Positions 14,906-45,654 of a stretch of 61,609 bases of DNA are shown piece after piece; position 1 is the stretch's first letter; each line of letters begins with the position of its first letter. Made by a program: the position numbers and the translations under genes. The notes beneath the pieces were generated by a model. It was not told the DNA's origin. It searched no databases and saw only the letters and a list, made by a program, of their open reading frames with translations. The DNA comes from Verrucomicrobiota bacterium. GTDB lineage: Bacteria; Verrucomicrobiota; Kiritimatiellia; SS1-B-03-39; UBA6053. The DNA lies in the NCBI GenBank assembly GCA_020831635.1, contig JAFIGC010000015.1:1-61609 (forward strand), in the 5' to 3' direction.

Positions 14906-15178
14906 TTACGAATCATTCAGGAAGCTTTCAAAAAGTTCGTAGACGACATCGCGTGTATTGGCATATTCAAGCAGAATTTCCTTGGAGGAAACCTGACGGT
15001 ACAGGATGCGCATGCCCCCGACGCGGAGGCGATTGTACCCTTCCAGCTTTCCTGAAAGGGGACGGATATTTCCTTGACCCTTCTCCAATCCGCGCAGGGC
15101 CAGCCGCACCCGGTGTTTTCGTTGGGGCGGGAGGGCGGTGAGCCATGCCTGTACCTGTTCAGAGGCCGAAATCTTCAT
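14906..15178 (-). CDS. RelE/ParE-family toxin
   Basis: A 90-residue basic protein with the RelE fold signature: helix LRLALRGLEKGQGNIRPLSG, then the strand pair YNRLRVGGMRILYRQV and EYANTRDVVYELFE. RelE toxins are ribosome-dependent mRNA interferases or, in ParE members, gyrase poisons. The C-terminal aromatic (VVYELFESF) fits the mRNase type. It overlaps the upstream Phd/YefM-type antitoxin gene by 20 bases, the usual antitoxin-first order. A fragment of a second relE copy is present at 16795-16863. Confidence 0.85.
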   Translation of the reverse strand: MKISASEQVQAWLTALPPQRKHRVRLALRGLEKGQGNIRPLSGKLEGYNRLRVGGMRILYRQVSSKEILLEYANTRDVVYELFESFLNDS

Positions 15179-15410
15179 GGTCCAAATCCAAGGGCTTGTA
15201 GCTTCCTTTGCCCGCTTCGGCGCGCTGAATCTCCTTCATCGCCTTGGGGTCGGACAACACATCCAAGGTTTCCATGAGCGCATCAAACTCCTCAATCGGC
15301 AGCGCCACCATCACCGGACGGTTTCGATTGCTGATCACAAAGCGGTTTCCGTCTTTGCAAAGCTTGGAAAGCTTGGCCTGAACTTCACTGATTGGATATA
15401 TAGAATTCAT
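15159..15410 (-). CDS. Phd/YefM-family antitoxin
   Basis: An 83-residue protein with the Phd/YefM DNA-binding fold at the N-terminus (YPISEVQAKLSKLCKDGNRF, then VISNRNRPVMVALPIEEFDA). The C-terminus is an acidic/charged tail likely to wrap the toxin. It neutralises the RelE-like toxin encoded immediately downstream and probably autoregulates the operon. Starts at ATG 15410, 131 bases from the divergent second TA operon start, so the two TA systems share one control region. Confidence 0.85.
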   Translation of the reverse strand: MNSIYPISEVQAKLSKLCKDGNRFVISNRNRPVMVALPIEEFDALMETLDVLSDPKAMKEIQRAEAGKGSYKPLDLDHEDFGL

Positions 15411-15541
15411 AATTATTTTATATAACTAAAATTGCGGAATTGCAAGTGGATTTTCCGGCAACACAACAGGGCGTTTCTTTTTTGATAGGAGAGGACAGGA
15501 AAAACTTGTTTTTTGGGCGGAAATGGGTCAAGTTGGTCATC

Positions 15542-15853
15542 ATGAAAGTCAAAGTGGGTCAACTGAAAGCGCATTTGTCGCAGTATCTTCGCGAAATGGA
15601 GGCATCGGGCGAACCGATTGAGGTTTGCGTGCGGGAGCGGCCGGTGGCGTATTTGACGCCGATTATGGAAAAGGACAATCATGCCGAGAGCGGACCTCCA
15701 CCGGAATTGGTGAAATCCTTGGCCGCGAATGGCATTCGCATTGTCCAGTGGGGCGGGGAAGATGATGATTTTGTGCCGACCCCGCGTCCGGCAGGTGATG
15801 GGAAGCAGATTGAGAACTCTGTGGTGGCCATGCGTGAGGAGAAGGATTGGTGA
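15542..15853 (+). CDS. Phd-type antitoxin of the PIN toxin
   Basis: A 103-residue protein starting at ATG 15542 (MKVKVGQLKAHLSQYL). The N-terminal 45 residues match the Phd/PrlF-like antitoxin fold seen with VapC toxins (LREMEASGEPIEVCVRERPVAYLTPI). The C-terminal half is loop-rich and acidic. Upstream in-frame sequence exists but lacks family similarity. The GTG start of the toxin overlaps its stop (GTGA). Confidence 0.8.
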   Translation: MKVKVGQLKAHLSQYLREMEASGEPIEVCVRERPVAYLTPIMEKDNHAESGPPPELVKSLAANGIRIVQWGGEDDDFVPTPRPAGDGKQIENSVVAMREEKDW

Positions 15854-16263
15854 CCCCACCGATTTTGTTTTGGGATGCCAGTGCGCTGGTGCCTTTGATG
15901 GTGGAAGAGGGCCGCTCCATGGAAGCACGTGATCTATGGACCCAAACGACGGAAGCCTATGCGTGGGAATGGGTTTTGGTTGAAGTGGAAGCCTCCTTGA
16001 TTCGTCGGAAAGCCTGTCAGGAAACTTGGCAGGATTGGCGGCAATTGCTAAAGAAACTTCGTTTGTTCTCGCTTCAGACCGAGGATTTGGGGAAGTTGCG
16101 TTTCTTGAATCGTGGAATGGGCCTCCGGGCGGCGGATGCGGGCCACCTTTTTATGTTTCACGGGCTGGTTCATTCTTTCTTCAATTTGGAACTTCTGAGT
16201 TTCGACCATGAAATGGTCACAGCGGCACAACAATTGGGCCTGCCGGGAATGGCACTAACTTAA
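15850..16263 (+). CDS. PIN-domain (VapC-like) toxin with element-altered C-terminus
   Basis: A 137-residue PIN nuclease. Acidic residues typical of the PIN active site appear in order: FWDASALVPLMVEEG at the N-terminus, the Glu in VEVEASLIRRKA, the Asp in LRAADAGHLFM and the Asp in LLSFDHEM. VapC toxins cleave tRNA or rRNA. GTG at 15850 overlaps the antitoxin stop. The last residues (GMALT) are encoded by a 354-bp inserted element (16247-16600). If the element and one target copy are removed, the frame would read LPVHPACIQS and stop, so the native tail was about five residues longer. The PIN core is intact. Confidence 0.8.
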   Translation: MTPPILFWDASALVPLMVEEGRSMEARDLWTQTTEAYAWEWVLVEVEASLIRRKACQETWQDWRQLLKKLRLFSLQTEDLGKLRFLNRGMGLRAADAGHLFMFHGLVHSFFNLELLSFDHEMVTAAQQLGLPGMALT

Positions 16264-16611
16264 GGGTCTTTTAAAACAGATTTTTGTGGTTGCCTTGGGC
16301 CGGAAAACGCCCCCGGCGGGCTCGTCCCGCCGGAGCGTAAGACCTGTGGCTAGACAGGAATCGCCTTGTATTCCCCGGCCCCTGCCGCCTTGCGCGGCAG
16401 GTGAAGAAGTCTCCCACGGAGCCAAGAAGCAAGGGACTTATTCACCTGCCGCGCAAGGCGGCAGGGGCCTGGAGATGGACAAGCTTACCCGGTCTAGCCT
16501 CAGATCTGATTCACCATGCGGGGCAAGCCCGCAGGGGTCTGTGGTTTCAGGGTTTTGACTGCGCCTGTACTTTCAATCGACCCTTAAGTTAGTGCCATTC
16601 GGGCCTGCCGG
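16236..16611. mobile_element. 354-bp MITE-like element with 22-bp TIRs and 11-bp target duplication
   Basis: The element (16247-16600) begins GAATGGCACTAACTTAAGGG+TC, and its right end is the exact reverse complement (22 of 22). Both ends abut direct repeats GGGCCTGCCGG (16236-16246 and 16601-16611), an 11-bp target-site duplication. Inside is a perfect 29-bp inverted repeat (16377-16405 and 16438-16466). No transposase frame is present. An 11-bp duplication and a TIR resembling IS4 suggest mobilisation by an IS4-family transposase elsewhere. Confidence 0.88.
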
Positions 16612-16973
16612 TTCATCCGGCTTGTATCCAGTCTTGAGCCTCAACCCTTGCTTTGGCGAAAGGGGGGGCGTGTGGGTGGCGTTGCGGTTGTTCCATGGGA
16701 AAAATTTTCTCAAGCGTATATGCAAGCACCCCTTTTTCTGATAGACTTCATTCATTCGAGTCCGAAGTTTTCAGAAGTCTGTAGGGTCGTCAATTTACTT
16801 TTCGTTGAGGAGAAGTTCAAGAAGTTCGTAGACGACATCGCGGGTATTGGCAAATTCAAGAAGTTATGACAATTCTTTTACAAGATTTGTGATGCGGGAA
16901 ACGTCTCCTCTCTGATAGAATCGATTCGTCGATGCCATTGATCGAATTTTCGAATATCCAACGAGGTGACGTT
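16612..16973. other. intergenic region with toxin-gene debris
   Basis: It holds the orphaned 3' tail of the PIN gene (to about 16642), a truncated relE fragment and, at 16961-16968, a GAGGTG ribosome-binding site ahead of the first giant gene. Nothing else was recognised. Confidence 0.6.
16795..16863 (-). pseudogene. relE-like toxin C-terminal fragment
   Basis: On the minus strand this encodes LLEFANTRDVVYELLELLLN and then EK-stop. It closely matches the C-terminus of the intact RelE-like protein (LLEYANTRDVVYELFESFLN). An in-frame TAA lies immediately upstream, so only 22 codons remain. It is a relic of a duplicated or lost toxin gene. Confidence 0.75.
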
Positions 16974-19900
16974 ATGAAAAAAATATTGTTTGTGCTGTCC
17001 GCGTTTTTGTTGCTGCCTTTGGCGAATCTCCTTGCGGAGTCCGACCCGGAAGTGCTTCCCGAATCGTCCCCGGATCGGCCTGCCGTCCGTGAGGTGTATA
17101 TTCCTTATGAGGAGTTTCGGGAGGTGTTCGAACGAACGGACCGGGGGGTGTTCCTTCCGTACGATGAATTTCGCGCCTTGGTGGACGCGGCCCGTGAAGC
17201 CGGAACCGTTGAAGCGCCCAAAGGCCCGAAAGGGGTTTTGATACAGGAAATCTCGGGAGTCGCGGAGGTCATGGGCACGCAAATGGTGCGGGTCCAGGCC
17301 ACGATCATTTTGGATGCCCTGAATCCGGCCTGGCATGAACTGGATCTGGGCCTTCAATCCGTAACCGTGTCCAAGGCGACGATCAATGGGGAACCGGCCC
17401 GCCTGAACGGCAATGCGCGGGAGGGATATGTGTTGTTGCTGGATCATCGGGAAGAGGCGGCCAAACGATATGAACTGGAATTGACTTTTGTCGCCCCGCT
17501 CATGCGGGCGGAGGAGGGCAACCGCATGGAAGGGGTGACCCGCGGGCATGGGTTTCGCTTTTCCCTGCCGTCCGCGCCGGTGAGCCGATGGGAAGTCGTG
17601 ATTCCCGAACCCGGCGTGGAACTGGCCACCCATCCGCCCCTGGCCATCGCCAATGTGCCGGATGCGGATGAAGCCAAGGAAACCCGGGTGGAAATCTTTT
17701 TGGCCTCCACCCCGACTTTGGATGTGCGCTGGATGCCTCGGGTGGATGGCGCCGAGGGGATGGATGCCCATGTGCAGGCCACGGTGAACCAATGGAGTTT
17801 GTTGTATGCGGATTTCACGCGTACCACGGTGTACGCGTCCCTGGCCATCAGTCGGGCCCCCATCGAATCGATTTCTTTTCGGGTACCGGAATCCGAACGG
17901 GTGGTGGACGCCTCCGCGCCAGGACTTCGCTCTTGGCGGGTGCGGGAGACGGAAACGGGGCAGGTGGTGGATCTTGAGTTTTTGGAGGGCGTACGCGGGG
18001 ATCGAAACGTAACCCTCGTGCTCGAAAATCACGAGGTGGATGCCGAACGCCGCGTGCCGCAAATCGAGGTGGTGGACGCCATCACCCAGCGTGGCGGGGT
18101 CGGCGTGGGACTGGACACCGGCTTGCGGGGGGAAGTGGTTTCGCGCGAAGGGCTGCAACGCATGGACCCAGCCCGGTTTCTGCCCAACAGGAGCCCGCGT
18201 CCCCAACTCGATTTTGTATATGAGTACCGCGCGGTTCCTTTTGCCCTGACGGTTTCCGTCTCCGAAGTGGAGCCGAGCATCGTGTCCCGCATGACCACCG
18301 CGGTCCGCCTCGAACCCTTGGAAATGCGCCTGAATGTGGTCGCGGAATTTGACGTGCGGCGCGCGGGCGTGTTTCATCTGGATCTGGACATCCCCGACGA
18401 ATACGAACTATCCAACCTTCGCGTGTCCACCGGCCCCACGCTCGACGGGCACACCCTCGGGGACCCCGAGGACGGACGGCGGGCCTTGCGGGTCTCCTTT
18501 GCATCCAGGGCGCAGGGAAAGGTGATATTGCAGTTTCAGTTGCGAAACGAACAAGCGGAAGCGGCGCTGATGACCCCGACCGGGGAAGAGGTGATCCGGG
18601 ACGTGCCGTTTGTGCGGGCGGCCGGGGATTATTTGGCTTCCGATGAAGGACATGTCCTGGTGAGCGCACCCGGTTTGTTGAATCTTCGGGTGCATCATAC
18701 CGAAAATTTGCGGGCGGTCCCCTGGGCCGAAGCCGGTGCCCACGCCCGCCAATTGTCGGGAGCAGCGACGCAATTCGCATTTCAATACGCCTCCGAACCT
18801 CCGAAACTGGAGTTGGCGGCCAGCCGGAAGGCGCCCCATGTGACCGTGGGCCAGTTGTTCACGATCATGGTTGAACCCGGCGTGGCCCGTTTCGAGGCGC
18901 ATTTGTTTGCGCAGATCCGCTACAGTGGCATCAGCGAATTGCGCGTGGACCTGCCCGCGGAACTTTCGGAGCGCATCCAGATTCAAAATCCGGAATTCCG
19001 GCGGCGGGTCTTGGACGATGCGCCAGACCTTGAAGAAGGCATGGTGGCCTGGATCGTGGAGCGTCCCGCGGACATGATCGGGGACGTGAACATTCCCTTT
19101 GCCTGGGAAACGCCGCTGGAGGGCGTGGATGTGGGCAAGGAGCAAGTTCTGGATTTGCCGCGACTGATCCCCCGGAACGTGGATCGGGCCTGGGGTCAAA
19201 TCGTGCTGCGCAAGGCCGGGTCGCTGGACATTGCCGTCTCCGAGGCCTCCGCCTCGCTTACGCCCGTGGATCCGCGCCATGACCTGATGCAGGGCAAAAC
19301 GTATGCGGACGCGGCCATGGCCTTTGAATTTCACCGCGATTGGCATTTGCGCGCGGTGGTCACCCGGTACGAACCCGCGCCCCTGAAATCCACCGCCATC
19401 GAGCGCGCATTGGTCCGCCAAGTGTTTACCCGGGGAGGACAAACCGCCGTGCAGGCGATTTACCGCATCCGCAGCACCCGCCAGCGTTTGGAGGTGCGGT
19501 TGCCGGAGGACGTAGAGTTCGACGCCCAGCCCTTGCGGATCAATGGACGGCCCATCATCTTGGAACGCGGCGCCGAGGGGCACGTGTACATTCCGCTGCC
19601 CGGCGTGGTCGCCGACGAGGCGTTTCTGTTGGAACTCCGCTATACCTTGCCCGGCGGACCCGGTCGCATCCGCCTCCCGACTTTCGTGGGGGACACGGCG
19701 GTTCAGGAAGTGAACCTCTCCCTGCATTTGCCCGAAAACGATGTCTATCTGGGGCACCGCGGGGATTGGAATCCCGAATTCATTTGGCGGGTGGGCGAGG
19801 GCTTTCGCCTGATGCCCCGGTCGGGGAAAGGTCCCCGGGAGTTGCTCAACTGGGTGGCCCAGGGTGTGTCCGTGGATGTCAACAGTCTGGATCAAATGCC

Positions 19901-20435
19901 CGTGGCCGGACAACATTTGCTTTTCAGCAGTTTAATGCCGGACACCCGAGACATCACCCTGCGCCTGTCTCGGGTCCCCTTGATTCTTTTTTATGGTGTG
20001 GTGATCCTTTCAGGATTTTTACTGGGATTGTTCTTGGTTCAAGTCAAGTTGGTCACCCGCCTTTTGGTGTCCGCGCTTTTGGTGTCGGGCCTGGTGCTGG
20101 CTTCGGTGTTTTTCCCTAGCTTTACCCGGGCGATTGTCAACGACGCCACCGCCGCTGCCGCCGCGATGGTGGTGGTGTTGTGGATTGTCTGGGATTTGAC
20201 CGTGCGATGGCCCCGATATCGGCAAAACCTGCGTTTGCAAACGGTACATGGGCACCAGGCCGAAAAACGCCCCATACCGGTGGCCGTGCCCCGGACAGCA
20301 ACGTCGACCGTGCCCAAGGCCCAAGAGCCCGAAGCTCAAGAGCCAAAAGCTCAAGAACAAGAGACGAAACCCGAGTCGAAATCCGAGCCGAATTCTGGGA
20401 CCGAAGAAAAAAAAGGGGACTCCGATGAAGCGTAA
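16974..20435 (+). CDS. giant exported membrane protein A (one module)
   Basis: A 1153-residue protein of unknown function. Signal peptide MKKILFVLSAFLLLPLANLLA. Residues about 42-72 contain a tandem motif, VYIPYEEFREVFE then VFLPYDEFRALVD. Next comes a roughly 900-residue beta-rich ectodomain with no recognised enzyme motif. About three transmembrane segments follow (residues 1001-1083), then a Glu/Lys/Pro/Ala-rich disordered tail (PKAQEPEAQEPKAQEQETKP). Large proteins with this [YL]-P-Y-[ED]-x-F start are found in Planctomycetota and Verrucomicrobiota but are uncharacterised. Start at ATG 16974 is supported by GAGGTG eight bases upstream. The 3' end overlaps protein B by 11 bases. Likely a periplasmic envelope protein held by its C-terminal membrane region. 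Confidence 0.75.
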   Translation: MKKILFVLSAFLLLPLANLLAESDPEVLPESSPDRPAVREVYIPYEEFREVFERTDRGVFLPYDEFRALVDAAREAGTVEAPKGPKGVLIQEISGVAEVMGTQMVRVQATIILDALNPAWHELDLGLQSVTVSKATINGEPARLNGNAREGYVLLLDHREEAAKRYELELTFVAPLMRAEEGNRMEGVTRGHGFRFSLPSAPVSRWEVVIPEPGVELATHPPLAIANVPDADEAKETRVEIFLASTPTLDVRWMPRVDGAEGMDAHVQATVNQWSLLYADFTRTTVYASLAISRAPIESISFRVPESERVVDASAPGLRSWRVRETETGQVVDLEFLEGVRGDRNVTLVLENHEVDAERRVPQIEVVDAITQRGGVGVGLDTGLRGEVVSREGLQRMDPARFLPNRSPRPQLDFVYEYRAVPFALTVSVSEVEPSIVSRMTTAVRLEPLEMRLNVVAEFDVRRAGVFHLDLDIPDEYELSNLRVSTGPTLDGHTLGDPEDGRRALRVSFASRAQGKVILQFQLRNEQAEAALMTPTGEEVIRDVPFVRAAGDYLASDEGHVLVSAPGLLNLRVHHTENLRAVPWAEAGAHARQLSGAATQFAFQYASEPPKLELAASRKAPHVTVGQLFTIMVEPGVARFEAHLFAQIRYSGISELRVDLPAELSERIQIQNPEFRRRVLDDAPDLEEGMVAWIVERPADMIGDVNIPFAWETPLEGVDVGKEQVLDLPRLIPRNVDRAWGQIVLRKAGSLDIAVSEASASLTPVDPRHDLMQGKTYADAAMAFEFHRDWHLRAVVTRYEPAPLKSTAIERALVRQVFTRGGQTAVQAIYRIRSTRQRLEVRLPEDVEFDAQPLRINGRPIILERGAEGHVYIPLPGVVADEAFLLELRYTLPGGPGRIRLPTFVGDTAVQEVNLSLHLPENDVYLGHRGDWNPEFIWRVGEGFRLMPRSGKGPRELLNWVAQGVSVDVNSLDQMPVAGQHLLFSSLMPDTRDITLRLSRVPLILFYGVVILSGFLLGLFLVQVKLVTRLLVSALLVSGLVLASVFFPSFTRAIVNDATAAAAAMVVVLWIVWDLTVRWPRYRQNLRLQTVHGHQAEKRPIPVAVPRTATSTVPKAQEPEAQEPKAQEQETKPESKSEPNSGTEEKKGDSDEA

Positions 20436-23400
20436 TCTCCTGTTGTTGTGCTGTATGATCCTGGGTTCGGTGTTCGCGGATGCGCCCCCTGAATCCACGC
20501 CCCGCATTGCGGTCGTGCCGCTGGCGGAACTTCCCGCGCTCCTGCAACAGCGGGCGGAACGCATTTTATTGCCCCTGGATGCTTGGGAGGACCTGCAACG
20601 GCGCGTCCGGGAGGCGGACGCGCTTCGTCCGCCCCAATCCGCCGCCGGCGGCGGTTTTGAGATGCGTCTGTATCTGCGAAGCGACCGGGTGTGGGTGGAA
20701 GCGGAGGGGCTTGTGGAAGGCCTTGCCGAGGGACTGCACGAACTGGAGATCGCGCATGAGGGCATCCATTGGACCCGGGCCGAGTTGGATGACGCCCCCG
20801 CCGAACTGGGCGGGGTCCCCGGCAAATCCCTCTCCCTGTATTTCGAAGGACGCGGTCAACGGCGCTTGCAATTGGGCGGATGGATTCCCCTGGTGGAGGA
20901 AACCGCCATGCGAAGCCTTCGCTTGACCCTGCCCGATCTGCCCGTGGACTTGCGGCTTTTCGCCTCGCCGGAAGTCGAAATCGTGACCGGCGCGGTGCTG
21001 CCGCTCGGTCAAACCGATGACGGCAGCGATCATGTCGAATATCTGGTGAGTCCCTCCGAAGGGAAGCTGCATCTGGTCTTTCGCGCCCATACTCTGGATG
21101 ACGGTCTGCCACCCATGATTCGCGCCCACCATACGTTGGTCTCGGAAGTGGAAACCTCGGGGGAACTTTTTTCGCTGCACACGCGGTTGATGTTTATGAA
21201 TCAATCCCCCCGGGTCGTGCATCTGAGCCTGCCCCCGGGGGTTTCCGTTTTCGATGTGGCCGGTGACGCCGTCCTTCGCTGGCAGGGGAGCGAATCCGGG
21301 GACCTGGAAATTCACTTGCGCAAGGATCTGCGGGGGGCGCAGAATCTGTTCGTGCGGGGGATGCGTGAAAATGAGACTTCGGAGGCATGGTCCCCGCCTT
21401 TGCCGAAACTACGCGGCGCGGAGTGGGAGCGGCATCTGATTGTCCTGCGCCTCAAACCGCCGCTGCGCTTGCAAAGTCTTGACCCCGGTGACAGCCAGCC
21501 GGTTTCCACCGCGAAAATTTTGTCCACCCTGACCCGGGAACAACGGGATCCGTCCGGCATTGTCGGAACCTGGTTCCTGGCCGGGGATGCGACGCCGCCC
21601 CAAGGCCGGTTTCATCAACCGCCCGTCGAAGTCAATGCCGTGGTTGATTTGCGGCTGTCCCTGCTTGAAGACAGCCAGCAGTTGGATGGCGGGGTGACCC
21701 TGGTTTCCCGGGGCGGGGGCGTATTCGATGCCCGGTTTGTTTTGCCCGCCAGTTGGGAGATCCAATTCGTCCACGACGAGCGAAATCAGGAATTGTCCCA
21801 TGAAATCTATGCCGAAGCGGAGGATCGCCAACGGGTGCATGTCTTTTTCGGCAAAGAAATGCCCGAAGGCACGCCCGCGAACATCCGTTTTCGGGCCAGA
21901 CGCGTGCCCGGGGACTGGCTGACCTCCGGCGGCACCGGGACGCTGGCTTTTCCCGATTTCGATTTGCCGGACGTGGAAGCGTATTCGGGCGGACTGGCGG
22001 TACAGACGCATGGGGAATTATCCCTGCGGGCCACGAGGCTGGAGGGGTTGACGCCCATGGATGAAAATGAAAAACGCCGATTCGGATTTCCCGCCGCCGC
22101 CTTGTCAAGAGCCTGGCGTTTTGAAGAACCCGGATATGCGTTGGAATTGGAAACCACCCGACTGCAAGCGGAACGACAGGCGGAAATTTTCTCGTTTTTC
22201 CGGATGGAACGAGAGTCCCTGCGCGCCCGGTATGAAATCATTCAGACCGTACGCCGCGCCCGGGTGCGGGATTTGTCGTTTACCCTCCCGGTGGTGCTGC
22301 CGGCCACGGCGGAGCTTTCCGGCGAAAAAGGAACCGTGATCGGGGAATTTTCCCGTGAACCCGAAGGGGAGGGGGAGCGGTGGACGGTGCGGCTGGCGGA
22401 AGGAGGGCTGGGAGAGGTTCACCTGAGTTTGGACGCCGTGTATCCGCTGGAGACGGACACCCCCATTCCCTTGCCGCTGCCCCGCGTGGTCGACGTGGAG
22501 ATTCAGTCCGGGCACGTGACCCTGGAGGGCACCCCCGAATACGAAACCACGGTGTTGGGCGCTCCCCGGGCCGTGGATGTGGGGGAAACCTCCGAAGCCG
22601 TTTATTTGCCCGGCTCCCGTTTGTTGGGGACGTTCATGTATTTGACCGATGTGCCGGAGATGTCCCTGATCGCAAAGGAACAGCCACTGGTTTTTGTTCC
22701 GAACGCCCTCATTCGCCGCCTGCGGCTGATGACCTGGCTTTCCCAGGGCGGCGTTCACCTCACGGAAGCCTGGTTCGAAGTGGAGGCGGACGCCGGGTTT
22801 ATTTCCGCCCATTTGCCGGGTGCCTCCGAAATTTGGTCGGTGCAGGTCGATGGCAAGGCCGTTGAACCCCGTTTGGGTGACAATGGACATTGGTTGATTC
22901 CCCTGCAAGGGGCGGCGGGCACAAGCGGACGAAGCAAACGGGTACAGTTGTTGTACGCCGGACATCACGCGCCTTTGTCGGTTCGGTCCCGCCTGCAATT
23001 GGAGGCGCCCCGTCTGGCCGTTCACGAACGCGAGGGGGAGACCCCGGAGTTGTTGACCATTGAAACCGAATGGGAATTGGTGTTGCCGAATGGGTTTCGC
23101 CTGGACACCTCCCGAGGCTCCGCGACGCCCTTGCACCGTCCCCGGCGTCCGCTGGCCATCACCGGTTTGGCCCGGGCATTGTGGATGCTTGGCGGAGGTC
23201 ACGAATACAATTTGGCCGGACGCGGACTCATCAGTTCCGGTAAAGATTCCAGGATGCTGGCCGGCGCACAGGAAGTGGATCCGCGTGACTTGGAGAGTGT
23301 TTTGTTTATCGAAGAAGATTCAGTTGATTTCTTGTTTTCGGACGCAGTAGATTCTGCACCGGCGGATCGGCGTGCGCCTCCGCCTGCCCCCGCCCGTCCG

Positions 23401-26400
23401 CAGGCCGGGGAACGTCTCGATACGGCAGTAGGGAGGGATCGGTTCAGGCGCGAATTGGCCCAGGTGCAATCGCAACTGCCGGACGCACCCACCGGGTTTC
23501 GCAGCCTGACCTTGGGATTGCAAGGCCGGCGGGACGGCATTCGCTTTACGCATTTGGGGGATGCTCCGGTTTTGGATGTCACCCTCAACAGCTCCAGCCG
23601 CTGGGATACCCTGGCTTGGGGCGCGGGATTGCTGGTCTTTTTCGGCGGCCTGTTTTTCCTGTCGGGAACCCGCAAAATGCGAATGGCCTATATTCTCGGG
23701 ACGATGCTGCTGGCCACTTTGCTGGCGGCCCTGCCGGGTTTGTTTGCGTTCGTGACCGTGTTCAACGCCGCTTTTTATGCCGCAGCACTGTTGTTTCCCT
23801 TTTATGTGATCGCGGGCATTTGCCGGTGGGTCTGCGGTCCCGTTGTTCGCTGGTTGCCCCGGGCTTTGGCTGCGAGTCTGTTTCTAATTTTGATCATACC
23901 GCCGGGTCTGGAAGCCCGGGAGCCGCGGCCAACGCCGCTTCCGCTTCCGGATGATCTCTGGATCATGCCCGCAAGCGAAACGGGTCCGCAAAAAATCATG
24001 GTGCCCGTGAAAACGCACGAAGACCTGATGGAAAAAATCCGAAAGCAGGATCAACCCGATGTGTCCAAGGAATTCACCCTGACCTGGCAGGCATCCGAAA
24101 CCCGTGTGTCGCTTCCGGAGGGCGGGGAAGACCGCCTGCTTTTGCACACGACCCTGCGGTTTCGCAGTCGCGGGATGCATGAGGGTTTGTTGCCCCTGAT
24201 GTCCGGGAACTTGAAACTCGTCTCCACCCATGTCGGGGCCGCCATTCAACTCGTGCGAACCCCGGAAGGGTTGGCCTTGCGGGTGAACGCGCCCGGTGAA
24301 CACGAACTCCGCTTTGCCCAGGAGGTGCCGGTCGCCGATCTGGCCGAAGGCAAACAAGTGGAAACCTTCGTTCCTGCCTTGGCGGGTCATCGTGTCCTGA
24401 TCCAAGTGCCGGCGGACACCGAACTGCATCTGTTGTCCGAACCCCAATCCCGGGTCATGCATTCCGGTACGGAGAGTGTCGAGGAGGAAACTTTCACCCG
24501 GGCGGACGGACAGTTGAAATTGCGTTGGCGGTCCTCCCATGCGCCGTCTTCCATCGACAGCGTCATGCAAATTGAATCCATGGCGGTTTTGGATTTGCAG
24601 CGGGAGGGTTCGACCCTGGTTTGGGACGCCGATATCCGCCTGCGCGGTACGACACGTTCCTTCGTCGATTTTGACCCGCCCGCGGGCTGGCGGATCGGGG
24701 ACGTCGAAGGCGACAATGTCCGCGGACGCGAGTTTCCGGGTGAAGGACCGACGCTGCGGGTGCACTTCCTGCGTCCGGTCAACGACCGGGTCCAACTCCG
24801 CATCCATTTCTTCCAATCCACGGAGGAGGAAGTGGTCGCGGAAGGCGGGGGACAAAGCCTGCGGCCGCCTTCGTTTCCCGGGGCCATGCGGCATACCGGT
24901 CAAGTGCTGATCCGCCATCCCGAAAATACCCGGGCGCGGGTGGTGTCCGCGGAAGGATTTCGGCGCGAAGAATTGAATGTGACCCCGTACCAAAGCCTGG
25001 TGCAAAGTTTGGAGGCCACCGTGTTGGCGTCCCAACCGTTTCAAACGCACGCCTTTTTCAATGCCAACGCCAGCCTGCGCGTCGAATTGGATCCCCTGAC
25101 CGCGCGTTATCAAGCCCATTGGGAGCGGATTTTCCGCATCGCCCAGCGCGAACAAATTCTGGAAACGCGATGTCGGGTGACCATTGAGGACGCGCCGCTG
25201 TATGTCTTGGAATTTGTCGTGCCCAATGCGCTTGAAATCACCTCCGTGGTCGCCCCGGGGTCCAGTTCCTGGCACGCGGAACCGGGCGAAACCGTCACCC
25301 GGCTCACGGTCCACGCGGCCAATGGCTGGACGCGGGAAGCCACGGTTATTTTGATCGGACGTTTTCAACAGGAATTGGAGGGCGTGCCCATCGAACTTCC
25401 CGGCATTCAACTGACCGGCGCCCACCGTGAGACCGGTGATTGGGTCATTCAGGCCGACCCCTTTTATCAGGTGGAAACCGAGGCCCTGAACGGCATTCGC
25501 CCCATACCCATGGAAAACGTACACGCCTGGCTGGCTTCCCCCCAACGGTCTTCCGCCCAACAGGCCCTGCGGTTTGACCGCGGGGATCACACCGGCAGGG
25601 TCGTGTTGCGCCGACGTCCCGCCGAGGTCACCGCCACAAGCTTTACCAACCTGCGGGTGACCGATCGGGTCATGGAAGAAACGCATCTGCTGGATTTCCG
25701 CATTCGGGGTTCCGGGGTGCGGGAGTTTGTCTTTGAGATTCCCGCCCACCTCGCCGAGGCCCATATGCGGATTCCCTTGCTGCGCAGCCGCGAAATCACC
25801 CCGATTTCCGGCGAACCGGAGCGCGTGCGGGTGCGGGTGGAATTGCAGGACGAAGTCATGGATCAGTTGCTGATCCTGCTGGAGCACGACCGGGCCCTGA
25901 AACCCGGCGCCGTGGAACTGCGGGGGCCCCGCATCCGCACCGGACGGGTGGGACGAAGCTATTTCACCCTGGAAAACGCCGGGCGCGACGAACTTCGCCT
26001 GCTCGACACCAACGGGTTGGAAACCCTGACCCGACAGCATGCCGAATGGGCCCTCGCGGCCACCCACTTGAAAGGGGACGCCACCCACGCCCTGATCAGT
26101 CGCGAAGGCGTGGACGATCCCATGCTGTCCTTTGAACTGCACGAACGAGAACAGGTACAAACCGTGGGCGCCAGCATTGGTCTGGCCAAAGTGGTGATGG
26201 TCATGGACGACAGCGGCGCCTACCGTGCCCAGTGGACCGGCCAGGTCGACAATCGCACTGAGCAATTTCTCATCATGGAATTGCCCGAAACCTCCCGATT
26301 GTTGATGGTGACTGTGGCCGGCAACGTCGTCCGCCCTGCGATGGATCCCGCCGGCGGCAAAGGGCGGATTCGGATTCCCCTGGTCAAAACCGCAGCCGGA

Positions 26401-27516
26401 GACTTGGACGTGCCCGTCAGCGTGATTTACGGGGGACAAAGCGACTTTCGGAAACTGCGTCGGGAAGGCTTTCCCTTTGCCCGTTCCGTGAACATCGCCA
26501 CCGAGCTGAGCCAGGCCGAACTGCATTTGCCCCGTCGCCGGAATTGGCTGCATTTTGATGGCAGCATGAGTTTGGTGCACGACGCGGCCGACTTCCAGGC
26601 CGGAGAATTGCAATACCAGACCCATGTGGCCAAACGACTTGCCGAAACCCTGAAAACCGGGGACGAATATGGTCGGACCCGGGCGATGTTCAATTTCAGA
26701 AACGTGTCAGGACAAATCGAAGCCGCCGCCGAAGATGAACGGTATGCGTACAGTGAAGAAATGAATCGCCAGCGTGAATCCGCCATCCAGGTGTTGAGTG
26801 AAGTGCAAGCCGACCCTTTTGGCAAGGCGAGGACCGATCAAGCTTTGGACAATCGTCTCAGTTTGAATCAACAGTTTGATGTCCAGGGGAATACCTGGGG
26901 AAACAATCAGGTCTTGCACAATCCCAGCAATTTCGCCGTGCCCGTGGAAACTGCCGAGGTTCGCGACGGCCAGGCGCAGCAAATCGATTATTCGCAACTC
27001 AGATCGGGGCGGGTCTCCGGGCGCGCGGTTCCGGATACCCCGGCACCGGGAATCAGCCTCTCCAAACTCGCGCAACCGCCGCGTCAGCGGGGTCAACAAC
27101 AGCAACTGGAAGCCTACGCCAGCCGACTTCACGAAGAAGAGGAGCAAGCCCCCGATGAGATTGCGCTGGAGAAACCCGTGGATCTCATGCCCCGACCCGA
27201 CCCGACCCTGACCCAGGTGTATCGTTTCACCACGCCCCGTGGCGATTTGCACGTCACCGCCTGGAGTCTCTCCCAGGAAGCCGAGGAAGGCTGGATACGC
27301 TTCGGTGCTTTCCTGGCGGCACTGCTGCTTGCCCTACTGCTATGGATGCGGCTGAAACGCCCGGCCCGAAAACCCGCAAGCGCCCGGGGCTGGTTGTGGC
27401 TCGGACTCGGTTTGTTGAGCATGTTGATCGGATTCCTGCCCGTCTACGGCATGATCCTCTTCGTGGTGGGCATCGTCTGCCTCGTACTCCATCGGAGGGA
27501 AGAGAAATACGTGTAA
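20425..27516 (+). CDS. giant exported membrane protein B (two modules)
   Basis: A 2363-residue protein paralogous in layout to protein A. Signal peptide MKRNLLLLCCMILGSVFA; then LAELPALLQQRAERILLPLD (about residues 33-52), the counterpart of protein A's YIPYEEF motif. A first ectodomain runs to residue ~1060, followed by a membrane cluster (about 1062-1160). A second module then starts with the analogous MVPVKTHEDLMEKIRKQ (about 1191-1207), an ectodomain to ~2285 and a final two-to-three-helix membrane region. A Gln/Asn-rich linker (QQFDVQGNTWGNNQVLHNPS) precedes the last helices. Start ATG 20425 lies inside protein A's last codons, so the two are co-translated. No catalytic motif recognised. 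Two paired hairpins follow the stop. Confidence 0.75.
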   Translation: MKRNLLLLCCMILGSVFADAPPESTPRIAVVPLAELPALLQQRAERILLPLDAWEDLQRRVREADALRPPQSAAGGGFEMRLYLRSDRVWVEAEGLVEGLAEGLHELEIAHEGIHWTRAELDDAPAELGGVPGKSLSLYFEGRGQRRLQLGGWIPLVEETAMRSLRLTLPDLPVDLRLFASPEVEIVTGAVLPLGQTDDGSDHVEYLVSPSEGKLHLVFRAHTLDDGLPPMIRAHHTLVSEVETSGELFSLHTRLMFMNQSPRVVHLSLPPGVSVFDVAGDAVLRWQGSESGDLEIHLRKDLRGAQNLFVRGMRENETSEAWSPPLPKLRGAEWERHLIVLRLKPPLRLQSLDPGDSQPVSTAKILSTLTREQRDPSGIVGTWFLAGDATPPQGRFHQPPVEVNAVVDLRLSLLEDSQQLDGGVTLVSRGGGVFDARFVLPASWEIQFVHDERNQELSHEIYAEAEDRQRVHVFFGKEMPEGTPANIRFRARRVPGDWLTSGGTGTLAFPDFDLPDVEAYSGGLAVQTHGELSLRATRLEGLTPMDENEKRRFGFPAAALSRAWRFEEPGYALELETTRLQAERQAEIFSFFRMERESLRARYEIIQTVRRARVRDLSFTLPVVLPATAELSGEKGTVIGEFSREPEGEGERWTVRLAEGGLGEVHLSLDAVYPLETDTPIPLPLPRVVDVEIQSGHVTLEGTPEYETTVLGAPRAVDVGETSEAVYLPGSRLLGTFMYLTDVPEMSLIAKEQPLVFVPNALIRRLRLMTWLSQGGVHLTEAWFEVEADAGFISAHLPGASEIWSVQVDGKAVEPRLGDNGHWLIPLQGAAGTSGRSKRVQLLYAGHHAPLSVRSRLQLEAPRLAVHEREGETPELLTIETEWELVLPNGFRLDTSRGSATPLHRPRRPLAITGLARALWMLGGGHEYNLAGRGLISSGKDSRMLAGAQEVDPRDLESVLFIEEDSVDFLFSDAVDSAPADRRAPPPAPARPQAGERLDTAVGRDRFRRELAQVQSQLPDAPTGFRSLTLGLQGRRDGIRFTHLGDAPVLDVTLNSSSRWDTLAWGAGLLVFFGGLFFLSGTRKMRMAYILGTMLLATLLAALPGLFAFVTVFNAAFYAAALLFPFYVIAGICRWVCGPVVRWLPRALAASLFLILIIPPGLEAREPRPTPLPLPDDLWIMPASETGPQKIMVPVKTHEDLMEKIRKQDQPDVSKEFTLTWQASETRVSLPEGGEDRLLLHTTLRFRSRGMHEGLLPLMSGNLKLVSTHVGAAIQLVRTPEGLALRVNAPGEHELRFAQEVPVADLAEGKQVETFVPALAGHRVLIQVPADTELHLLSEPQSRVMHSGTESVEEETFTRADGQLKLRWRSSHAPSSIDSVMQIESMAVLDLQREGSTLVWDADIRLRGTTRSFVDFDPPAGWRIGDVEGDNVRGREFPGEGPTLRVHFLRPVNDRVQLRIHFFQSTEEEVVAEGGGQSLRPPSFPGAMRHTGQVLIRHPENTRARVVSAEGFRREELNVTPYQSLVQSLEATVLASQPFQTHAFFNANASLRVELDPLTARYQAHWERIFRIAQREQILETRCRVTIEDAPLYVLEFVVPNALEITSVVAPGSSSWHAEPGETVTRLTVHAANGWTREATVILIGRFQQELEGVPIELPGIQLTGAHRETGDWVIQADPFYQVETEALNGIRPIPMENVHAWLASPQRSSAQQALRFDRGDHTGRVVLRRRPAEVTATSFTNLRVTDRVMEETHLLDFRIRGSGVREFVFEIPAHLAEAHMRIPLLRSREITPISGEPERVRVRVELQDEVMDQLLILLEHDRALKPGAVELRGPRIRTGRVGRSYFTLENAGRDELRLLDTNGLETLTRQHAEWALAATHLKGDATHALISREGVDDPMLSFELHEREQVQTVGASIGLAKVVMVMDDSGAYRAQWTGQVDNRTEQFLIMELPETSRLLMVTVAGNVVRPAMDPAGGKGRIRIPLVKTAAGDLDVPVSVIYGGQSDFRKLRREGFPFARSVNIATELSQAELHLPRRRNWLHFDGSMSLVHDAADFQAGELQYQTHVAKRLAETLKTGDEYGRTRAMFNFRNVSGQIEAAAEDERYAYSEEMNRQRESAIQVLSEVQADPFGKARTDQALDNRLSLNQQFDVQGNTWGNNQVLHNPSNFAVPVETAEVRDGQAQQIDYSQLRSGRVSGRAVPDTPAPGISLSKLAQPPRQRGQQQQLEAYASRLHEEEEQAPDEIALEKPVDLMPRPDPTLTQVYRFTTPRGDLHVTAWSLSQEAEEGWIRFGAFLAALLLALLLWMRLKRPARKPASARGWLWLGLGLLSMLIGFLPVYGMILFVVGIVCLVLHRREEKYV

Positions 27517-27989: not shown

Positions 27990-28162
27990 GAGTGGCATCC
28001 CGTTGGGATGCGGTTTCGTGTGGGGATGCAAATTCCGGGGTTTCACCCCGGTCTGACGAGTGGCATCCCGTTGGGATGCAAGTTCCGGAATGAAACACCC
28101 ATTTCCCAATCGACCCCAACGGGGTCTCACCCGTCAGCCCGGCGGCAACGCCCCGGGAAACG
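27990..28162 (+). repeat. family D repeat and GGCGGCAACGCC module
   Basis: GAGTGGCATCCCGTTGGGATG occurs twice (from 27990 and from 28059) around CCGGGGTTTCACCCCGGTCT. The stretch 28126-28162 repeats the module seen in reverse at 1864-1901. The GGCATCCCGTTGGGATGC palindromes could fold in RNA. Confidence 0.75.
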
Positions 28163-28597
28163 TATCCAACCCGTTTGCCGACCCCAACGGGGTCGCACCC
28201 TACTTTGTCACGAGCTTTGTCGAAAGCTTTATCTGGGTTTCATTCTTAGAAACGTATTTGACCTTGCGATTAAACCACGTTTAAATGCCCAATAATTTGA
28301 GGTCTGATATTCAACGTAGATAAGCCGTGGGCAAGGGGCGATCAAGTCCCGCCGCCCACGGAAATTCCATTCATGATTTGTTCACCCTGAGAGGGTGATT
28401 CACACCGGAGCCACCCCATTTTTCACATGTACGCAGGGATAAGGCATCCTTTCAGGATGCACTTCATTTTCAACTGGAAACCGGGGGTATTTCGCTTCGT
28501 TCGAACCCCGGCTACGCTGAGTGCCCCTTTCAGGGCAAAAAAATCTTGACGTTCACTCAGGGAATTTACATGATACCCGAAAATTGCTTATTAACTC

Positions 28598-28604
28598 GTT
28601 AGGC
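28598..28604 (+). other. possible cassette-array boundary (GTTAGGC)
   Basis: GTTAGGC fits the integron core consensus GTTRRRY and precedes the first small gene by 20 bases, as expected at the start of a cassette. No matching R'' box or integrase gene was found next to it. Confidence 0.35.
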
Positions 28605-28623
28605 TCAAAGAAAGGATTGACGA

Positions 28624-29010
28624 ATGAGCTTCGTACACACATTCAGATGCTGGCTAAACGAATCACTTGCGCAGGATGTACCCGATTCCGTCAAAGCTTT
28701 TTCGTTCAACCTCTTTGAACCAGCTATGGTAGATGGCGTGAAATTTGGGGTTGAGGTTGTCGGAACAGGAGAGTTTGACGAAGACGATCCCGATTGGGCA
28801 TGTGATGAAGTCTGGGAGCCAGTCCCCAGAGGAATCTGCATTCCCGTCGATTTCTCCAGTGAAGAGTGGGAAACATGTACTCAGAAATTGAAGATATTGC
28901 TTCTAGGACAACTTGAAGTTGACTCTCCGGCGATGGGCATCCTCAAATCGAGGAATGGCATCGGTTTGGGCTTTATCGATGGTGATCTCGAAATCATATG
29001 GAAACCCTAA
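28624..29010 (+). CDS. small acidic cytosolic protein (cassette gene)
   Basis: A 128-residue acidic protein (TGEFDEDDPDWACDEVWEPV, CIPVDFSSEEWETCTQKLK) with no signal peptide and no recognised domain. The composition resembles immunity-type proteins, but there is no homology claim. Its last 13 bases overlap the next gene, so the two are one unit. AT-richer than flanking core genes. First gene of the cassette-like stretch. Confidence 0.65.
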   Translation: MSFVHTFRCWLNESLAQDVPDSVKAFSFNLFEPAMVDGVKFGVEVVGTGEFDEDDPDWACDEVWEPVPRGICIPVDFSSEEWETCTQKLKILLLGQLEVDSPAMGILKSRNGIGLGFIDGDLEIIWKP

Positions 29011-29351
29011 CCATTTCCGACACCGAACGAGTCGGTGTGGGAAAGAGAATAAGAATGCAGCATATCGGATTACAACGAGAAACAGAAGATGGTGAGGTGG
29101 AAGCCGTTTACGGTGAAGGAAAATCCATTGATTTGATTTTGCTCACCTCTAATTTGGAAAGAACATCATGCCTCCGGTTTATCGACCCCTATGGCGATAC
29201 AGTTTTCAATCAGTTACAGATACCAGTTCTTATCGAAGAAATCCAGGCTGTTGTCGCGAACGCTCAGGAATCGTTAGACATCACTGAAGTTATTGATTTT
29301 CTGAAGAATTCTATTGACCTGCATACACATGTGCGGTTTTGTGGAGATTAG
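28998..29351 (+). CDS. small hypothetical protein (cassette gene)
   Basis: A 117-residue cytosolic protein of unknown function with an N-terminal beta-rich part (VGKRIRMQHIGLQRETEDGE) and a C-terminal helix (VLIEEIQAVVANAQESLDIT). Overlaps the preceding gene by 13 bases and is probably translationally coupled to it. Between its stop and attC 29614-29673 lies an inverted-repeat element. Confidence 0.65.
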   Translation: METLTISDTERVGVGKRIRMQHIGLQRETEDGEVEAVYGEGKSIDLILLTSNLERTSCLRFIDPYGDTVFNQLQIPVLIEEIQAVVANAQESLDITEVIDFLKNSIDLHTHVRFCGD

Positions 29352-29431
29352 AAAGGTTCAACCATTTGTAGGTGGTGATGCTACGCTTCACAAAGCCCAA
29401 ACCCTTTGACACGAAAGAAAGAACATAATCA

Positions 29432-29607
29432 AACCACGGATAGCACGGATGAACACGGATCATGTGTGGGAAAAAGCACATGTGAACGGAGAAATCCGGG
29501 AGAAAAATCCAAACGAACGAGGGTATCGAATTGCCAAAACCCTGAAAAAAACTAAACTCTCAGAAGAAATGAATATCCGTGTACATCCGTGCCATCCGTG
29601 GTTAAAA
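29432..29607. repeat. inverted-repeat element (ACCACGGAT... / ATCCGTGGT)
   Basis: AACCACGGATAGCACGGATG at 29434 is mirrored by CATCCGTGCCATCCGTGGTT ending near 29603. The ~110-bp middle has no gene. This sequence type is widespread as a dispersed repeat in many bacteria. Its presence shifts the apparent start of the next long frame upstream, but that extension is repeat DNA. Confidence 0.7.
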
Positions 29608-29613
29608 ACAACC

Positions 29614-29673
29614 CGCCAACCATCAGTCGCACTCAACCTCGTAAACTCGGCCCGGTGGACTCATAAGATGAGA
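29614..29673 (+). other. attC-like site, degenerate R' box
   Basis: R'' CGCCAAC (29614-29620). Arms AGTCGCAC (29625-29632) and GTGGACT (29655-29661) pair apart from one unpaired extra base (G), the hallmark of attC. The centre is AACCTCGTAAACTCGG, shared with the site at 30936. The R' position (29667-29673) reads GATGAGA instead of GTTRRRY. Total length is exactly 60 bp, like the two intact sites. Confidence 0.6.
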
Positions 29674-29679
29674 TGGAAT

Positions 29680-30390
29680 ATGAAAACCACTTTGATTGAT
29701 CAGTACAACAAAGCCGGCTCTGAAGGCGACTTAATCCATCGAATGGGGATAGGGTTGTATGGGGCGTATTCATGGGTCATGGTTCTCCTATACGTGGTAA
29801 TCATTTCACATGTGAATGCCGTGGAAATTGGAGATACACGTTCCCAGGTTCTTGATAAAATGGGAAAGCCTCGGATGATTTTGAAAAAGGGAAACGCAGA
29901 ACATCTTTTCTGGGAAAACGGGATTTTCACTGAACTCGAAGATGGTCGGGTCGTCCGTTTCAATTCAATGGTCAAGGATGTTCATCAGAACAGCGGAGAA
30001 AATCCCAATCTCACTCAGGAACAAATCAACGCTAGATCGACGAAATCGCTTGATGCTGAGATTCAAGAGATTTCCGAATATACTACGATGAAAATATTGG
30101 ATAAGGTGACGACCCTCTTGTCTGAACAAGCGCCCTCCGCCCCACAGAAATTTTGGCAGGATTTTAGGGATGCACACAAGGAGACTGTGGTGACATTGTA
30201 TGCCAGGGATATACACCCTATCATTCTTGAAAACGAACATGACACTTATTCTGTTGTTGAAGAGTTCACATACACATTCACCAAGAGACACATAAAAAGA
30301 CTTATAAATTTGGCAGTTGATGATCTTGTGTCTGAAGGGTATCTCAGTCCTAACCGGGCGAAAGTAATTTTGGAGCACATGAATCGCTGA
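29680..30390 (+). CDS. exported hypothetical protein (cassette gene)
   Basis: A 236-residue protein starting at ATG 29680. After a charged leader (MKTTLIDQYNKAGSEGDLIH) it has a hydrophobic segment (YSWVMVLLYVVIISHVNA) followed by VEIGDTRSQVLDKMGKPRMI, resembling SmpA/BamE-like or DUF2845-type lipoprotein starts (a G-xT-xxxV-xxxMGxP motif). The C-terminal ~140 residues are helical. Start choice: the longer frame runs into the repeat at 29432-29607. Function unknown. Confidence 0.6.
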   Translation: MKTTLIDQYNKAGSEGDLIHRMGIGLYGAYSWVMVLLYVVIISHVNAVEIGDTRSQVLDKMGKPRMILKKGNAEHLFWENGIFTELEDGRVVRFNSMVKDVHQNSGENPNLTQEQINARSTKSLDAEIQEISEYTTMKILDKVTTLLSEQAPSAPQKFWQDFRDAHKETVVTLYARDIHPIILENEHDTYSVVEEFTYTFTKRHIKRLINLAVDDLVSEGYLSPNRAKVILEHMNR

Positions 30391-30569
30391 GTATCTTCCT
30401 CTGCGCCCAGTCCCCCGCCACAGAAGAAAATTTCAATGATTGAACAGGGATTGCGGTAACAAAAACATCGACTAAGGAGAATGAAATGGTAAGTATGAAG
30501 TCCACCCACCCATGCGGCTTAACCCGTCAAATAGGCTGGTGAGAACGCTTCGCGTTCCACAGTCTGATC

Positions 30570-30576
30570 GTTGGCA
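30570..30576 (+). other. possible attC R' box (GTTGGCA)
   Basis: GTTGGCA fits GTTRRRY and lies seven bases before the next small gene. Upstream CAGTCTGAT could pair imperfectly with CATCGACT near 30466. A full attC is not convincing. Confidence 0.3.
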
Positions 30577-30582
30577 ACATGA

Positions 30583-30966
30583 ATGAATGAGACAATGGAT
30601 ATCCTTTCGAGTCTGTACCAAGAACTCGATACAAACTGGCAGTTGACTGTATTGCTATTCATCGGAGTATATATACTCCTTGTACTCACGGGAACCATGC
30701 TCGCTTCCGTCCGTCGGCGGTGGGCCATCTCAGTGGCTCAGCCTGTCTTTCCTCTGCTCTATCCATTTTGGTGCTGGGCCAACTACCAAGCGTTCCTCTG
30801 GTCGAAGGGGCATGGCATTCCCTTGCTCTGGCGCCCCTTCACCATGATCGCGTGGATCATGCTCTGGGCAAGACCGCTTTTGTCTCTCTGGTTATTCACC
30901 ATGACCTTGCGAGTTAAATCAAACGAAAAAGAAATGGCCAACAAAACCCTTGGTCGAACCTCGTAA
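30583..30966 (+). CDS. small membrane protein (cassette gene)
   Basis: A 127-residue protein with three probable membrane segments: LTVLLFIGVYILLVLTGTML (about residues 21-40), WAISVAQPVFPLLYPFWCWA and FTMIAWIMLWARPLLSLWLF. No family recognised. Its last 10 codons lie within the following attC site, a common arrangement for integron cassettes. An alternative ATG at 30595 (MDILSS) is possible. Confidence 0.6.
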   Translation: MNETMDILSSLYQELDTNWQLTVLLFIGVYILLVLTGTMLASVRRRWAISVAQPVFPLLYPFWCWANYQAFLWSKGHGIPLLWRPFTMIAWIMLWARPLLSLWLFTMTLRVKSNEKEMANKTLGRTS

Positions 30967-30995
30967 ACTCGGTCCGATCAGGGTAAACGTTGGAT
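30936..30995 (+). other. attC site, 60 bp
   Basis: R'' GGCCAAC (30936-30942) and R' GTTGGAT (30989-30995). Arms ACCCTTGGTCG (30946-30956) and CGATCAGGGT (30975-30984) pair except for one extra T, as expected of an extrahelical base. The spacer AACCTCGTAAACTCGG is shared with the site at 29614. Confidence 0.75.
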
Positions 30996-30997
30996 TT

Positions 30998-31447
30998 ATG
31001 CTGATGAAATTCATACCTATCTTCATTCTTATGGCAGCGTTGCTTACAGGTTGTGCCACACCGATACCCGTTCAGGTGACACACACGGCAACAGGAGATC
31101 CCGTTGCCGATGTACTTGTACGTCGTCAAGGATCAGCAAACCGATGGGAAAAAATCACGAATCCTGTTGGAACTTTTTACCATCCAACCACGACTGCCGA
31201 AGCTGTATGGACGGATTCTGAAGGTCGAGGAATTTTCAACAAAATTGGCCGGAATGATTCGTACAGCATCGTTACAGCGTCAAGCGACCCGTTAACGGTG
31301 ATACTCGGCACCCATACCCTTTCGCTCGACCCGGGAACGAATACAGATTTCGCCGCATGGCAATACGATGCGCGAGAAATTGACGGGCAATGGCAGATCA
31401 ACGTCACGGAACCGGGCTGGAACTGTACGAGAGGTCAACCCAACTAA
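30998..31447 (+). CDS. lipoprotein (cassette gene)
   Basis: A 149-residue lipoprotein starting at ATG 30998 (or 31004), three bases after the attC R' box. Lipobox MAALLTGC gives a lipidated Cys at about residue 18. The mature part looks like a small beta-sandwich (VQVTHTATGDPVADVLVRRQ, YSIVTASSDPLTVILGTHTL). It is reminiscent of carboxypeptidase-regulatory-like folds. Function unknown. Confidence 0.65.
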   Translation: MLMKFIPIFILMAALLTGCATPIPVQVTHTATGDPVADVLVRRQGSANRWEKITNPVGTFYHPTTTAEAVWTDSEGRGIFNKIGRNDSYSIVTASSDPLTVILGTHTLSLDPGTNTDFAAWQYDAREIDGQWQINVTEPGWNCTRGQPN

Positions 31448-31574
31448 GCACCCATCTTGGCGGGGTCGGGTACGGCCGTACACCAGGTCGAGCGTCGGGA
31501 AGACCTATGATCCAAGCCTCCACTTTCCATTGATTTTTGTTGCAAAAAATGTCGCAAGATGCTTTATTTTAGGC

Positions 31575-44191: not shown

Positions 44192-44216
44192 CTTGCTGTC
44201 GGATACCGCAAAAGGT

Positions 44217-45602: not shown

Positions 45603-45654
45603 AATGTTGAAATCTATGGTGAGGTGCGAAAAAGGAAAGGGGAAAATTGCTTTG

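Follow-up and report, generated by a model that had tools for sequence, protein, structure and literature searches.

A two-gene system of Verrucomicrobiota encodes three homologous exported modules, each with five tandem beta-domains

Here we describe a 10.6-kb two-gene system, A and B, whose products together carry 15 copies of one domain type, each of about 130 to 190 aa and arranged as three modules of five, with the copies of module 2 placed by alignment. This recurring Verrucomicrobiota system has no Pfam or NCBIfam entry; it shares its fold class with eukaryotic and archaeal Ost1 and with integrin legs but is linked to neither by sequence. We regard the A+B family as neither an artefact nor a case of ordinary annotation; it is new, phylum-wide and hierarchical in its 3 x 5 build, and its function is putative. 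Our preferred reading, to which we give a probability of about 0.45, is that A and B together make a scaffold or tether that is anchored in the membrane, spans the envelope and docks by the tips farthest from the membrane.

Results

Both genes lie on the forward strand of the window, the whole stretch of 61,609 nucleotides that was analyzed, which comes from a 6.0-Mb genome assembly of the class Kiritimatiellia, phylum Verrucomicrobiota (GTDB).

16974..20435 (+), gene A, 1153 aa, with signal peptide, tip helix pair, five beta-domains, 3 transmembrane (TM) helices and an acidic cytoplasmic tail (translation, AF2, TM scan)
20425..27516 (+), gene B, 2363 aa, with modules 2 and 3 (translation)

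The end of A and the start of B have 11 nt in common, with the ATG of B inside the last codons of A and a purine-rich aaaagggg upstream of it, and both proteins begin with signal-peptide-like N termini. Translation showed that an earlier note on this DNA had been correct about the coordinates, lengths, overlap and signal peptides of the two genes. Neither A nor B matched a family in Pfam or NCBIfam, a profile of the module found no match among PDB sequences even at E<=10, and a first search of the genome contigs with a single sequence gave no match.

The earlier note had proposed that A (module 1) and B (modules 2 and 3) are a triplicated system, and three kinds of comparison bear this out. 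Between the ectodomains, blastp gave 1e-16 for modules 1 and 2, 1e-7 for modules 2 and 3, and 3e-6 for modules 1 and 3. When separate ortholog profiles were made for each module, hhalign aligned them over ~830-870 columns at 3e-36 (M1/M2), 1.6e-39 (M1/M3) and 6e-35 (M2/M3), with reversed controls at 0.6, 0.4 and 0.03. A profile built solely from the single-protein relatives of other genomes matched module 1 at 9e-74, module 3 at 3e-61 and module 2 at 3e-38, while none of 600 shuffled modules came below E 3. Modules 1 to 3 are homologous exported units of ~900 residues, far beyond chance; the possibilities that the ectodomains are unrelated, or that each belongs to a known family, were tested and neither held. 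Since the module tree gives each module position its own clade, the triplication is ancient, with the modules separate before the sampled lineages split, and in one genome they are three separate genes. A recent tandem triplication is ruled out by the same clades.

Each of these ectodomains, which had been described as beta-rich, contains five tandem domains that the earlier account overlooked. Compared with itself, the module profile matched at offsets of ~170 and ~340 residues (1e-37 and 8e-20), and the self-profile of module 3 gave the same repeat offsets. The AlphaFold model of A (pLDDT 79.5, with most of residues 85-930 above 90) has five beta-domains at aa 84-262, 262-431, 431-619, 619-803 and 803-932, the boundaries being set by eye from the strands and the repeat offsets.

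17223..17759 (+), beta-domain R1 of A (aa 84-262; AF2, self-profile)
17757..18266 (+), beta-domain R2 of A (aa 262-431), homologous to R3 and R4 (hhalign R2/R3 4e-23, R2/R4 9e-25)
18264..18830 (+), beta-domain R3 of A (aa 431-619; hhalign)
18828..19382 (+), beta-domain R4 of A (aa 619-803; hhalign)
19380..19769 (+), beta-domain R5 of A (aa 803-932), resembling R1 (hhalign R1/R5 4e-7)
20629..23121 (+), five beta-domains of module 2 (B aa 69-899; mapped by alignment and homology)
24061..26565 (+), five beta-domains of module 3 (B aa 1213-2047; AF2, self-profile)
26584..26883 (+), helical bundle of module 3 (AF2)

The inner domains R2, R3 and R4 align with one another at 7e-21 to 9e-25, and the outer pair R1 and R5 at 4e-7. 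The AlphaFold model of module 3 (pLDDT 82.9) shows the same five domains and, after them, a helical bundle, a disordered segment, a beta-hairpin of short length and the TM helices. The models of modules 1 and 3 agree on the five-domain build; they share some alignment rows and are therefore not fully independent, and at a pTM of 0.48-0.51 they do not fix the straightness of the legs.

In a Foldseek search of the PDB with the model of A, ribophorin I/Ost1 came first (6s7o_E, 3.8e-9, probability 1.00, at a query TM-score of only 0.13), followed by integrin alpha ectodomains and then by the N-domains of M1 aminopeptidases (LTA4H, IRAP). Module 3 matched integrin alpha (8t2v_A, 7e-10), RPN1/Ost1 (5e-8), PIG-T and M1 peptidases, and a BFVD search returned only stacked beta-sandwiches and M1-like proteins from giant viruses. 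All these PDB matches are beta-sandwich stacks of an extended or accessory kind. Because the repeated domains stack differently, whole-chain TM-scores over the query reach only 0.10-0.17, and the match is therefore one of domain class, the large tandem beta-sandwich, and not of shared architecture or shape. The fold class, whose likeness to ribophorin and integrin the earlier reading had not recognized, is known, but the family and the arrangement are new.

Ribophorin I/Ost1 (PF04597) may resemble A in its series of like beta-sandwich domains next to a TM anchor, but it has two such domains where each leg here has five, there is no sequence match between them, and the present proteins are bacterial. 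No Ribophorin_I match at E<=1 appeared in hmmscan of A and B, and PF04597 found no giant gene over 39 genomes, reaching only 0.47 elsewhere. OST1 has been reported in eukaryotes and in TACK/Asgard archaea (PMC11417166), and profile searches for the non-catalytic OST subunits gave no promising prokaryotic candidates (PMC4973528). Single domains of A and module 3 match the N-domains of LTA4H, IRAP and a Deinococcus M1 peptidase over ~215-230 columns, but the catalytic domain, GAMEN and the zinc motif of M1 aminopeptidases are all absent from A and B: a search for GAMEN and HExxH-x18-E found a lone HEGIH in module 2, which has no E at x18 and is missing in the ortholog at L049. The thigh and calf of the integrin alpha leg, matched with module 3, are likewise a beta-sandwich stack on a TM anchor, but the integrin beta-propeller and beta subunit are absent here and the TM-scores are only 0.1-0.17; the models of modules 1 and 3 have sandwich repeats only and no beta-propeller head.

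Each of the three modules is followed by a TM cluster (A 1004-1072, B 1063-1158 and B 2290-2355), with helices assigned from simple hydropathy and model helices and no dedicated predictor.

19983..20189 (+), transmembrane cluster of A, 3 helices (TM scan, AF2 helices)
23182..23484 (+), juxtamembrane slot of module 2 (a low-complexity linker in the window)
23611..23898 (+), four TM helices that separate module 2 from module 3, of which the last is signal-peptide-like (TM scan)
27211..27510 (+), pre-membrane beta-hairpin and C-terminal TM helices of B, two or three (AF2, TM scan)

With three TM helices after A and four between modules 2 and 3, all three ectodomains would therefore lie on the same side of the membrane. 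Export, membrane anchoring and the absence of enzyme motifs, all proposed in the earlier note, are supported. The slot of B varies in content among genomes and holds cytochrome c, secretin N-domains or disorder. That of G006 scores 27.7 bits as a cytochrome c (PF00034), above the cut-off of 21.3, and that of G390 matches an STN/secretin N0 domain (35.5 bits), with weaker matches in G491 and G343, which suggests that the module-2 slot may be a site where different cargo is plugged in. Cytochrome c and STN/secretin N-domains normally work in the periplasm, and their presence in the slot therefore supports export. Because modules 2 and 3 are encoded by separate genes in G390 (L133), B is best regarded as two genes fused into one.

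Directly after the signal peptide of A, two tandem helices lie ~18 residues apart in the motif YxPYxxLxxxFExxGRGVFLPYxEFxxLW, and the other two modules have N-terminal helices of their own.

17091..17204 (+), tip helix pair of A, EVYIPYEEFREVFERTDRGVFLPYDEFRALVDAAREA, in the most conserved 30-residue stretch of A
20503..20619 (+), N-terminal helix pair of module 2, VVPLAELPALLQQ...ILLPLDAWEDLQ (one of two copies by pattern)
23956..24054 (+), N-terminal helix motif of module 3, IMVPVKTHEDLMEKI (AF2 helix 31-44)

The pair is near-invariant in A across the phylum and is only echoed in the modules of B. Among 13 A proteins from several families, the 30-residue window that starts at position 37 is the best conserved of A (71% versus a mean of 47%), and both copies of the motif are present in 13 of 14 A proteins, L129 having a variant first copy. 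A profile of the tip gave one strong match per genome in ten genomes, always in A and at 4e-20 or better, and three of these genomes also have faint echoes of it where module 3 begins. A general sorting signal is ruled out by this single strong match per genome. Because the anchors are C-terminal, the peptide should be at the membrane-distal tip of A. The earlier note had pointed to a helix motif at the module starts, and the feature is real, but the pattern written for it, [FILM][LV]Px(4)[FLW], matches 0 of the 3 starts that the note cites and occurs at chance level.

Proteins of this type had been said to occur in PVC bacteria, and profile searches of class and phylum genomes confirmed this for Verrucomicrobiota: the A profile detected relatives in 71 of the 346 genomes of the class, and the module profile did so in 62 of the 289 genomes of the phylum. 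These relatives come in two recurrent forms, the three-module A+B pair and a single two-module protein of ~2100-2500 aa. The pair was read in the window and in L049, L051, L095, L096, L097, L129-L132 and L134, which represent several families; B is split in L133 and L135, and L136 has A only, up to the contig end. In all readable loci A and B are adjacent on the same strand, -11 to +29 nt apart. Among the Kiritimatiellia loci no third gene recurs next to the pair. Sigma and VWA genes are absent from the surroundings of every A+B locus, and neither an ECF sigma nor a zf-HC2/VWA/YfbK gene lies beside the pair in the window.

The two-module proteins form a sister family whose five-domain modules are homologous to those of A+B (hhalign 9e-44 to 6e-57). 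In 29 of the 34 loci whose upstream DNA is readable, a YfbK-type VWA gene lies directly upstream of them, most often bearing an N-terminal zf-HC2 domain and accompanied by an ECF sigma gene, a sigma/VWA linkage that had gone unnoticed in the earlier reading. By hand count, YfbK_C is found in 58 of 67 class genomes with a single-protein relative versus 67 of 275 without the family. There was no YfbK match in the complete genome G008, which has A+B only, or in the genomes of L052, L098 and L109, which have the two-module form without sigma/VWA neighbors. The window's own genome has unlinked ECF sigma and VWA/YfbK_C genes on another contig (C85; L150 5363-8505), with no giant gene beside them, no zf-HC2 match and a weak TPR. 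Gene pairs of this known kind (E. coli YfbK and the sigma/zf-HC2-VWA pairs) are linked to the sister family in most loci but are unlinked to A+B in the window or at any other A+B locus. The near-constant place of the sister family behind an ECF sigma and a VWA anti-sigma gene makes the function of the whole class directly accessible to genetics, and A+B is a minimal two-gene set for tests in culturable strains.

In the module-1 tree the proteins of the window and of the same-family genome G008 pair, but those of G006, also of that family, group with other families. A-family genes are absent from three genomes of the window's genus. Together these make an older transfer or differential loss of A+B likely, and a family distributed so patchily is not a universal envelope part. 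A recent import of the operon was rejected, since its GC3 of 0.70-0.72 equals that of the neighboring genes (0.69-0.75).

Several shorter sequences were seen in the relatives. Secretin-like pieces (PxLGxIPLLGxLF, STN/N0-N1) recur in linkers of the giant family and its YfbK partners, namely in the YfbK linkers of L053 (aa 693) and L055 (aa 277) and in the B slots of L133 and L135. The motif VKSPVIMKGIYxSRxPGxRG, possibly a common docking or sorting peptide, is common to the YfbK linkers of L055 and L056 and the module-2 slot of the L096 B protein (aa 1137). A pilin-like helix end, LLPALSxSRxRA, which we take to be typical of PVC prepilins, lies within giant and YfbK proteins (L099 aa 899, L056 aa 110, L058 aa 129 and L130 B aa 975). 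A third type of relative occurs in L061 (90-5563) and L062 as genes for 1165 aa and 646 aa, followed in L061 by an apparent response regulator and histidine kinase.

Discussion

The earlier note had spoken of an envelope system, perhaps a structural shell or scaffold; triplication, export and anchoring speak for it, and the scaffold or adhesive role is a matter of interpretation. As a scaffold or tether, each of the three legs would be exported to the periplasm, held in the cytoplasmic membrane by its C-terminal TM helices, and would span the envelope as a rod built from five beta-domains of the ribophorin/M1N/integrin-leg-like kind. At the membrane-distal N terminus, in the A leg at least, the short conserved helix pair would dock onto a partner, which could be another leg, an outer-membrane protein or the wall. 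Expressed together from a single operon whose genes overlap, the three legs would probably form one complex.

The strongest rival is suggested by the sister family's place behind a VWA anti-sigma protein. The giant ectodomain could be an envelope sensor, the periplasmic partner of the VWA anti-sigma factor that reports strain to the ECF sigma factor, and A+B could do the same with its sigma/VWA genes elsewhere or lost. The 29 of 34 sister loci directly behind sigma and zf-HC2/TM/VWA/YfbK genes, the YfbK excess in class genomes with a single-protein relative (58 of 67 versus 67 of 275) and the unlinked sigma-YfbK pair in the window's genome are consistent with such a sensor, which we consider possible but unlikely. 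However, sigma/VWA genes lie near none of the A+B loci, the three genomes with an unaccompanied two-module form have no YfbK match, and because A+B occurs without YfbK in the complete genome G008, a sensor role cannot hold unchanged for A+B. A wider proposal, which we hold to be doubtful, would place both in one phylum-wide class of ribophorin-I-like trans-envelope beta-rods with two branches, one a three-leg complex with a tip-docking peptide and the other a sensor read by the VWA anti-sigma protein, with the logic of integrin-like mechanosensing.

The rank of Ost1/RPN1 as the top Foldseek match of A and the PIG-T match of module 3 could instead point to glycan or glycoprotein handling, in which the domains, like the luminal domains of Ost1/ribophorin I or PIG-T, would hold substrates, either glycosylated or unfolded, on behalf of an envelope enzyme. 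According to a review, the luminal part of Ost1 has two domains that are alike and mainly beta, and Ost1 binds glycosylated peptides (PMC7226087). We think this role improbable, given that PF04597 finds no giant gene in 39 genomes and that no glycosyltransferase recurs beside A+B. The size of the proteins, their integrin-like legs and their beta-rich repeats would also suit an adhesin or shell exposed outside the outer membrane that sticks cells to substrates, but the cytoplasmic-membrane TM anchors at each module end, the cytochrome c and STN domains inserted into the same chain in relatives, and the lack of any visible sorting or outer-membrane export signal make it very improbable.

Around A+B in the window, two toxin-antitoxin-like pairs lie just upstream of A, a RelE-like gene with a YefM/Phd-like antitoxin (14906-15410, -) and a Phd-like gene with a PIN (VapC-like) gene (15440-16263, +). 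A 69-nt direct repeat, 81% identical, occurs at 14906-14974 and 16795-16863, and its second copy, ~110 nt before A, looks like a remnant of the RelE-like gene's end. The gap upstream of A also has an inverted repeat (16374-16472) of 38 bp, 95% complementary with a 23-nt loop. A low-GC island (28000-32000; 46.8%, where the window has 57%) directly downstream of B contains orphan ORFs and a weak PIN domain. Farther along, at 42869-45680 (-), adjacent ORFs of 456 and 487 aa with no Pfam match lie beside a tagaturonate epimerase gene.
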